Assembly (NCBI RefSeq): GCF_001488575.1
Contig: NZ_LN831302.1
Span: 2,108,001 to 2,172,000, forward strand
DNA length: 64,000 bases
Direction of reading: 5' to 3'
Source of the DNA: Halobacterium hubeiense
GTDB taxonomy: Archaea > Halobacteriota > Halobacteria > Halobacteriales > Halobacteriaceae
The notes under the pieces: model-generated
Told to the model about the DNA's origin: nothing
The model's database searches: none
The model's input: the letters and a program-made list of their open reading frames with translations, nothing else
Part shown: one piece after another, positions 2,203 through 51,792 of the stretch
Position numbering within the stretch: position 1 is the first letter of the stretch
Layout: each line of letters starts with the position of its first letter
Program-made: the position numbers and the translations under genes

Positions 2203-2558
2203 GTCGCCGGCTTCACTGCGAGACGGAATAGCACTTTTGCCTGTTCGAGGGCCGCGAGAAGCGTGCCGGCAGCGGGCAATTCCCTCGCGACTTCACGATG
2301 CCACGAACGGACAGCGACAGAGCAGTCGCTGTCCGGTTCGAGTCAGAGAGGAGTGTGCTGGCCGGGAGCGAGCAGTCCACACGACTGCGAGCATCGGAAG
2401 ACGCTGCGTGTCTTCCGGGAATTGAACCGGAATCAGACGGTCACCCTCGCTTCGCTCGGGTGCTGCGACGGATAGGGTTCAATTCCCTCGCGCATTCACA
2501 ACGGTACGAACAGCCAGCGACAGAGTCGTCGCTGTTCGGGTCGAGTCATCAGAGGAGT
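2203..2558. repeat. tRNA-Gly 3' flank: tandem repeat and inverted T-arm copies
   Basis: This 356-base gap has no plausible gene. A unit at 2275-2367 recurs at about 2480-2571, roughly 80% identical by eye. Each unit starts with the T-arm tail caattccc, has a shared middle, and ends with the tRNA-Gly 3' sequence (13 bases, one mismatch, at 2355-2367). Between the units, T-arm copies face each other at 2417-2428 and 2475-2487 (12 bases, inverted), enclosing 46 bases. A further stem with GGAAGAC arms surrounds about 2400. No integrase or transposase is present. Confidence 0.8.
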
Positions 2559-2628
2559 GCGCTGGCCGGGAATTGAACCCGGGCTATGAGCTTGGGAAGC
2601 TCATGTCCTACCACTAGACCACCAGCGC
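2559..2628 (-). tRNA. tRNA-Gly (anticodon CCC)
   Basis: The minus strand folds into a complete cloverleaf. It has acceptor stem GCGCTGG/CCAGCGC, a short D arm, an anticodon stem TGAGC/GCTCA around loop TTCCCAA, and a T arm CCGGG-TTCAATT-CCCGG. The anticodon is CCC, so it reads the GGG glycine codon. There is no intron and no encoded CCA. Its 3' side carries partial copies of its own T arm. Its 5' side carries a 13-base direct copy of its start. Confidence 0.95.
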
Positions 2629-51301: not shown

Positions 51302-51711
51302 ACCGTGTCCTTCGCCAGCCGACGAGAAGAACGCTGGGGCCGCGCTGATAGTGGGTCCTAAATGAGCATACGCGCGGCTTCGCCGCGCGTTTCACCGCGA
51401 GCCGGAGGCTCGCGGGGAGTTTTTAGCGTAGATTTTTGCGACGAGCGGTGCGCGAGCGAAGCGAGCGCACCCGAGGAGTAAAAAGGTACGAAGACGCCGG
51501 GACAGGGATTTGAACTGGAGGAAGACGGTCCTGCTCGCTTCGCTGTCGTTCGAGAGAGCGGAGCTCTCTCGTGATGACGAAAGACGGCAAAGCCGTCTTT
51601 CGAACCACGCGGGCTGCGACTTCCAGAGTTCAAATCCCTGCGCCGCTCACAGGATACTCACGACCGCAGCGCGACGAGACGCGCTGCTCAGCGGTGAGTC
51701 TCCAGAGAAGC
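51302..51711. repeat. 410-base gap: triloop palindromes and tRNA-Ser T-arm element
   Basis: No gene is visible. The left part holds palindromes with ACGCGCGGC arms and TTC loop (51370-51390) and CCGCGAGCC arms and GGA loop (51395-51415), then an A/T-punctuated repeat copy (51417-51447). The right part holds a 21-base exact copy of the tRNA-Ser 3' end at 51495-51515 and an inverted T-arm copy at 51627-51640. These enclose a core with palindromes at 51551-51571 and 51578-51602 (AAA loop, 11-base arms). Confidence 0.8.
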
Positions 51712-51792
51712 GCCGGGACAGGGATTTGAACCCTGAACCCCGTAAGGGGACACGCTTTCCAGGCGTGCGCTTTGCCATTCGGCCATCCCGGC
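51712..51792 (-). tRNA. tRNA-Ser (anticodon GGA)
   Basis: On the minus strand a full cloverleaf forms with acceptor GCCGGGA/TCCCGGC, anticodon stem ACGC/GCGT around loop CTGGAAA, a long variable arm CCCC-TTA-CGGGG typical of serine tRNAs, and T arm CAGGG-TTCAAAT-CCCTG. Anticodon GGA reads UCC/UCU. There is no intron or encoded CCA. A TATA-like gggtttaaacg lies about 30 bases upstream. Its 3' end is copied 216 bases downstream. Confidence 0.95.

Follow-up and report, generated by a model that had tools for sequence, protein, structure and literature searches.

Two tRNA genes of Halobacterium hubeiense, tRNA-Gly(CCC) and tRNA-Ser(GGA), are each followed by a short palindromic sequence that contains pieces of its neighbouring tRNA, which raises the question whether the two sequences are one kind of element and how such an element could reach the 3' end of a tRNA gene. 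Both lie in the window, the 64,000-nt stretch of contig NZ_LN831302.1 analysed here (positions 2,108,001 to 2,172,000). A preliminary description had named three motifs common to the Gly and Ser elements in the same order and on the same strand, with extra hairpins in the Ser copy between the second and the third, and both statements hold: AGACGGTC lies at 2435-2442 (Gly) and 51523-51530 (Ser), CTCGCTTCGCT at 2446-2456 and 51534-51544, and GCTGCGAC at 2462-2469 and 51613-51620, while the extra hairpins form a discrete 62-bp insert at 51546-51607. Taken alone, AGACGGTC (12 occurrences in the 64-kb window, 6.8 expected) and GCTGCGAC (4, with 8.5 expected) are unremarkable, and CTCGCTTCGCT is enriched (3 vs 0.11 expected). 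The ordered triple is far beyond chance, with 17 exact matches in 59 related genomes including that of H. hubeiense and none for the reversed-pattern control, which disposes of the objection that the core might be no commoner than expected. Once the 62-bp insert is removed, the Ser core reads GTCGCAGCCCGCGCAGCGAAGCGAGCAGGACCGTCT, the canonical 36-nt form identical to cores in other genomes. The idea of a three-motif core is right for AGACGGTC and GCTGCGAC, which flank the hairpin, but not for CTCGCTTCGCT, which often fills a variable, covarying hairpin and lies outside the conserved core.

Read on the tRNA strand, the unit consists of a tRNA ending in X, a spacer that usually forms a hairpin, an inverted T-arm, a mismatched core hairpin and a further X, where X is a direct 21-nt copy of tRNA bases G53-N73. 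Stem 2 of the core hairpin carries AGTCG/CGTCT with a T.T mismatch and is followed by a CAG/AC internal loop and a variable tip stem. The unit therefore goes beyond the element first described, as it also comprises the spacer hairpin and builds tandem arrays. In the window, its parts are the following:

51710-51792, minus strand: tRNA-Ser(GGA), host gene (ARAGORN, Rfam), with its own X (G53-N73) at 51711-51731
51666-51688, minus strand: spacer hairpin S of the Ser unit, which in a flank comparison resembles the flank of element-free orthologues
51621-51641, minus strand: inverted T-arm and left strand of stem 2 (GCAGGGATTTGAACTCTGGAA) of the Ser unit, pairing with the outer X
51608-51620, minus strand: 5' part of the core hairpin (GTCGCAGCCCGCG) of the Ser unit, from comparison with the canonical core
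51546-51607, minus strand: 62-bp two-hairpin insert nested in the Ser core, with relatives in other palindromes of the genus
51523-51545, minus strand: 3' part of the core hairpin (CAGCGAAGCGAGCAGGACCGTCT) of the Ser unit
51495-51515, minus strand: outer X of the Ser unit, an exact 21-nt copy (G53-N73) identical to 51711-51731
2557-2628, minus strand: tRNA-Gly(CCC), host gene (ARAGORN, Rfam), with its own X at 2558-2578
2515-2534, minus strand: spacer hairpin S of the Gly unit
2470-2489, minus strand: inverted T-arm and left strand of stem 2 of the Gly unit
2435-2469, minus strand: core hairpin GTCGCAGCACCCGAGCGAAGCGAGGGTGACCGTCT of the Gly unit
2415-2427, minus strand: T-arm part of the outer X (GTTCAATTCCCGG) of the Gly unit, exact
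2354-2366, minus strand: acceptor part of the outer X (CCCGGCCAGCACA) of the Gly unit, with one mismatch

In the Gly unit, a nested palindromic insert with CCCGG on either side parts the acceptor from the T-arm portion of the outer X. Both loci are patchy across the genus, and their orthologues bear differing core types.

The limits of X are sharp. In all 65 units whose copy is exact over 20 nt, host and copy share G53, identity mostly ends by position 52, where a host base other than G is generally uncopied, and 37 of these units have at most one more match past N73. Position by position, the identity of the outer arm to the host tRNA is close to background before position 52, runs at about 0.8-1.0 from T54, is 0.77 at N73 and then drops. 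The 13 bases of the acceptor side of X are 86% identical to the unit's own tRNA vs 46% to other isotypes, and the own tRNA was the best match for X, ahead of every other isotype, in 51 of 63 cases. The outer and inner arms are not equivalent: the inverted arm matches the host only from position 53 to about 63, so that the host-matched arms of the preliminary description stand for the outer arm, which copies the tRNA 3' end, but for the inner one only in the T-loop and part of the T-stem. Likewise, an element adopting the T-arm of its target captures the host matching of X, but the outer arm is more aptly called a duplicate of tRNA bases 53-73. Unit size has a median of 133 bp (63 units) and a range of 110-248 bp.

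For the fold, 13 units were aligned gap-free; they were chosen for equal length and hence are a subset. Among them, 96.7% of the hairpin pairs are standard and double changes occur at 11 of 26 pairs, with a covariation score of 0.426 as against 0.175 after shuffling (0/500 as high) and at most 0.086 when the structure was slid. RNAalifold returned the same structure unprompted, and 30 units folded as circles with DNA parameters gave a mean z of -3.3. The covariation is that of a maintained fold, for which DNA and RNA are alike possible.

It had been predicted that a genome search would bring many hits beside tRNA 3' ends, and this was borne out. The pattern GTCGCAGC-N10-40-GACCGTCT, read on the tRNA strand with any hairpin between, is present in 316 of 392 sampled Halobacteriales genomes and thus in most of those sampled from this archaeal order, whereas its reversed control was sparse in the same 392 genomes and rarely exceeded one match per genome. 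The T-arm pattern ACCGTCT-N3-13-GTTCRAATC was found in 39 of 53 Halobacteriales genomes and in 9 of 242 genomes of other Halobacteriota, with one or two matches each, several of which resemble the variable arms of real tRNAs; this sparseness indicates that the feature is essentially haloarchaeal. A broad contig scan used too unspecific a pattern and gave mostly bacterial chance matches together with some named haloarchaea. Among the first 17 copies, 15 stand 49-159 bp past a tRNA 3' end in constant orientation. A larger sample, non-random as it followed the listing order of the 392-genome scan and added earlier matches, had a same-strand upstream tRNA and a T-arm copy in 80 of 119 distinct copies, across 15 isotypes, with tRNA-to-core distances clustering at 48-92 bp (59 copies), 128-213 bp (16) and 287-369 bp (5). 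Two further T-arm copies were traced to intron-containing tRNA-Trp, and the remaining sampled copies are mostly tRNA-free palindromes or chance matches; some genera (e.g., that of G324) bear mainly the tRNA-free class of core. A single element type beside tRNA 3' ends is therefore the rule among these copies, but the core occurs in tRNA-free palindromes too. Surveys of the sequence flanking the tRNA genes found an X copy with an inverted arm behind 9 of the 44 tRNAs of H. hubeiense and some trace behind about a third, i.e., behind roughly a fifth to a third of its tRNA genes.

Comparison of related genomes shows these units as discrete modules. The spacer motif GAGCAA/GAACAA follows 23 of 83 element-bearing but only 1 of 69 element-free tRNAs, a skew that makes the spacer generally part of the unit, although at the window's own Gly and Ser loci it is similar to native flank. 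Likeness over 90-108 bp can extend between units of different isotypes despite their differing X, as at tRNA-Glu and tRNA-Val of one genome, and arrays of units occur at tRNA-Ser, tRNA-Thr, tRNA-Trp and others. Related species differ by whole units with junctions at X. At tRNA-Ser(TGA) of one genus, genome G240 is without a unit and its flank matches the sequence past the outer X of its one-unit sister G044; the unit of G044, Q, is also found in G162, P followed by Q in G200, G217, G141 and G100, and a Q-like followed by a P-like unit in G329. As a tree of the adjoining region places G240 within a unit-bearing clade, this case is best read as precise loss, and G240 probably does not preserve a pre-insertion site. 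Loss alone hardly accounts for the reversed unit order in G329. Further losses and tandem expansion probably come from homologous recombination between X copies, of which the near-identical double unit at one tRNA-Ser of G176 looks like a product. The gain, loss and stacking of units suggest an undescribed kind of tiny mobile element.

We hypothesize, with a probability of roughly 55%, that these sequences are non-coding, non-autonomous insertion units of Halobacteriales that enter tRNA 3' ends with a 21-bp duplication and are moved in trans. Since the same 21-bp stretch is duplicated in many tRNA genes and the fold is conserved, the simplest explanation would be an enzyme that recognises tRNA 3' ends and the core. 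A unit of roughly 110 nt plus the 21-bp flanking repeat would insert at the 3' end of the tRNA gene and duplicate bases G53-N73, so that the tRNA stays intact and the copy X comes to lie on the far side; read from the tRNA, the product would be X, then the spacer hairpin, inverted T-arm and mismatched core hairpin, then X. The folded hairpin with its fixed unpaired bases could be recognised as single-stranded or extruded DNA, rather than as RNA, by a recombinase or transposase supplied in trans. Arrays would arise as each new unit lands next to the tRNA and moves the older ones outward, and recombination between X copies would excise units precisely, although this order of gains and losses is our inference. 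The rule that tRNA bases 53-73 are duplicated is precise and testable, the folded motif can serve to fish for the enzyme, and the arrays offer a natural record of growth at tRNA genes.

Several observations count against this insertion model, namely the only partial host matching of the inverted arm, the presence of the core in unrelated tRNA-free palindromes, the resemblance of the spacer to native flank at the window's loci, and the probable loss behind G240, the clearest no-unit case. No mobilising gene was identified. Phage_integrase matches in eight genomes are not generally close to the units, and the neighbouring integrase in G276 lies beyond an X-like copy, in what appears to be a mobile element that arrived later, with a presumed tRNA-Pro on one side and an older unit on the other. 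A BLAST search against plasmids and phages returned no tRNA-type unit as a possible vehicle, and pattern scans of IMG/VR gave only chance matches and true tRNAs among the matches listed, the first set being partly filtered.

A bolder and more doubtful possibility is an archaeal cassette system in which the tRNA gene is the anchor, in the role of attI or of a CRISPR leader whose repeat is the tRNA 3' end; gene-less hairpin units would then be captured, stacked, excised and reordered by a trans-acting recombinase that reads folded DNA. A strictly integron-like version, which we consider rather unlikely, would make the units gene-less attC-like cassettes whose folded single strand is bound by a tyrosine recombinase and recombined near G53/T54 of the T-loop; the T-loop would act as attI, the unit would bring X, and the tRNA would receive the 3' end of the unit. 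The mismatched hairpin, constant in its unpaired bases and variable at the tip, the left junction at G53/T54 and the tandem arrays that differ in order between species would all fit, and the GAAC...GTTC at the hairpin base recalls the AAC...GTT that attC sites carry. Gene-bearing units were not seen, however, and a move between isotypes would replace the acceptor strand of the tRNA, yet related units stand at different isotypes with intact tRNAs. The near-identical double unit of G176, the precise losses between X copies and a unit in L045 whose outer half resembles a tRNA-free class, as if recombined within the core, could instead be taken to mean that no dedicated enzyme is involved, and that slippage, template switching and homologous recombination copy palindromes and tRNA 3' ends while unequal crossing-over between X copies resizes the arrays. 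This is improbable, as random duplication would not be expected to produce identical 21-nt limits at dozens of tRNA genes, one conserved core in fixed orientation throughout, or a covarying fold.

The strong covariation could also reflect a regulatory element or functional RNA that is transcribed together with the tRNA or downstream of it, acts in tRNA 3' processing, termination or control and is kept by selection, and the constant side and orientation to the tRNA and the 48-92 bp spacing of most copies agree with this. We regard it as highly improbable, given that the unit is patchy at orthologous loci within the genus, core types are swapped between orthologues, only part of a genome's tRNA genes have a unit, and Rfam holds no match; nothing in the data requires the unit to be expressed as RNA. 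A known non-coding RNA was rejected, as the covariance models of Rfam 15 gave only tRNAs and one sub-threshold chance match, and a C/D-box RNA likewise, as the GTGATGA of the Ser copy sits in the 62-bp nested insert, outside the core. Partial tRNA copies are marks of integrated elements in haloarchaea, e.g., the 22-nt tRNA-Ala duplication flanking a Haloquadratum prophage (PMC3119063), and the units might on these grounds be attR scars left by proviruses or plasmids at tRNA genes. The uniform size of about 133 bp, the conserved core with its inverted arm and the lack of any match on phages or plasmids make this scarcely credible, and in G276 the unit looks as though displaced by a later element, the stretch with the integrase stopping ahead of it at an X-like copy. 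If the insertion model is true, provirus scars would be the wrong reading for many of the partial tRNA copies in haloarchaea. Priming of reverse transcription by tRNA was rejected, as the inverted arm reaches no further than about position 63 and X no further than N73; the units have no primer-binding site complementary to a tRNA 3' end including CCA. IS200/605-type (Y1) mobilisation of the hairpin appears inapplicable by analogy, as such elements make no target duplication.

No description of the unit was found in Rfam 15 or in the openly licensed papers searched, which agrees with the initial proposal of an undescribed element, and none of the known mobile families considered matches the unit in all its defining features. 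In how they would work, the units can be compared with integron attC sites, as gene-less cassettes at a fixed anchor (PMC3053210, PMC11641012), or with Cas1 systems, in which growth proceeds as repeat, unit, repeat. The likeness to integrons extends to tandem units at such an anchor, an imperfect boundary hairpin whose unpaired bases are conserved and whose tip varies, and an order that differs between relatives, but it is one of form only: the haloarchaeal units are gene-less, their anchor is a tRNA gene, the hairpin base matches the host tRNA, and no integrase was identified. When the hairpin base TTTGAAC...GTTCAAA is set against attC RYYYAAC/GTTRRRY, AAC/GTT fit and the fourth base differs, and instead of adjoining one IntI-type integrase the units are spread over many tRNA loci. 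If an enzyme does act on folded single strands, the system would be an archaeal parallel to integrons.

Archaeal elements moved by tyrosine recombinases (SSV, pNOB8, pT26-2 and SNJ2 types) also use the tRNA 3' end as attachment site, leave a direct tRNA copy at their far end and carry the integrase gene within (PMC8371274). The haloarchaeal units have the same direct repeat at the far end, but the known elements span several kb with an integrase gene, for which 110-248 bp leaves no room, and an inverted T-arm with a core hairpin is unreported at their sites. Cas1 systems likewise duplicate their target; casposons, too, are found at tRNA 3' ends, and CRISPR arrays grow at the leader side with duplication of the repeat. 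Casposons carry cas1 and polB and share no more than the final 4-7 nt with the tRNA gene (PMC4046053); the units are too short to code, which sets them apart from an element defined by these two genes with terminal inverted repeats. CRISPR inserts are unique sequences between short direct repeats, in contrast to the conserved family that lies between X copies. Haloarchaeal MITEs, PATEs and small mobile repeats (SMRs) resemble the units in being short, gene-less, palindromic and dispersed; the PATEs and SMRs of Haloquadratum make no target duplication, MITEs have transposon terminal repeats, and tRNA targeting is not described for them (PMC3119063). In a non-systematic look, no autonomous transposon was recognised as a partner with matching terminal inverted repeats, as a MITE would have. 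The rtT repeats of E. coli tyrT, at one locus in bacteria and with larger units, stand in tandem behind a tRNA gene, and each includes the 3' end of that tRNA. In this respect the haloarchaeal arrays are of the same kind, but the rtT repeats are not known to have a conserved mismatched hairpin common to many tRNAs.

Other repeats share the surroundings of the window's units. The 62-bp insert of the Ser core (51546-51607) is a two-hairpin module with central GTGATGAC that also occurs in larger palindromes of the genus (also L684-L690), and just outside the Ser unit, at 51364-51490, lies a palindromic repeat TTTTTAGCGTAGATTTTTGCGACGAGCG...GAGGAGTAAAAAGGTACG with dozens of copies across the genus. 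At tRNA-Gly(CCC), some members of the genus (L322, L324, L326-L328, L330 and L331) have a different unit with acceptor-only arms around a GTCTCGTTCGCTTCGCTCACGAGA-type hairpin, which likewise ends in tRNA 3'-end copies; more than one unit family may thus use this site.

The tRNA-free palindromes bounded by GAAAGG/GGCTTTC are abundant in some genera. In these larger structures (L025-L036, L350, L353 and L504-L532), the core hairpin lies between GACTGAAAGGGG and GGGGCTTTC together with two or three further hairpins; target duplication was not noticed, and many dispersed copies occur on plasmids and in some genera (g23, g89). In one genus (L046, L373, L383 and L045) the core has a third context, GAGCAGGGAA-core-TTCCCGTGGGAAAAA, and L045 itself combines the tRNA side of the tRNA class with the outer side of the GAGCAGGGAA/TTCCCGTGGGAAAAA class, as if recombined within the core. 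Region G276:C1:2003000-2022000 (L414) is likely a mobile element of about 19 kb with integrase ORFs, lying between a tRNA-Pro near 2027.15 kb, presumed solely from its 3'-end sequence, and an X-like copy at 2008.16 kb, which is followed by an older hairpin unit. Finally, near position 29142 of contig C11 in G176 (L517), an apparent tRNA-Gly remnant encloses an inverted arm and the core and stands directly before GTTCAAATCC, with neither a spacer nor a second X.
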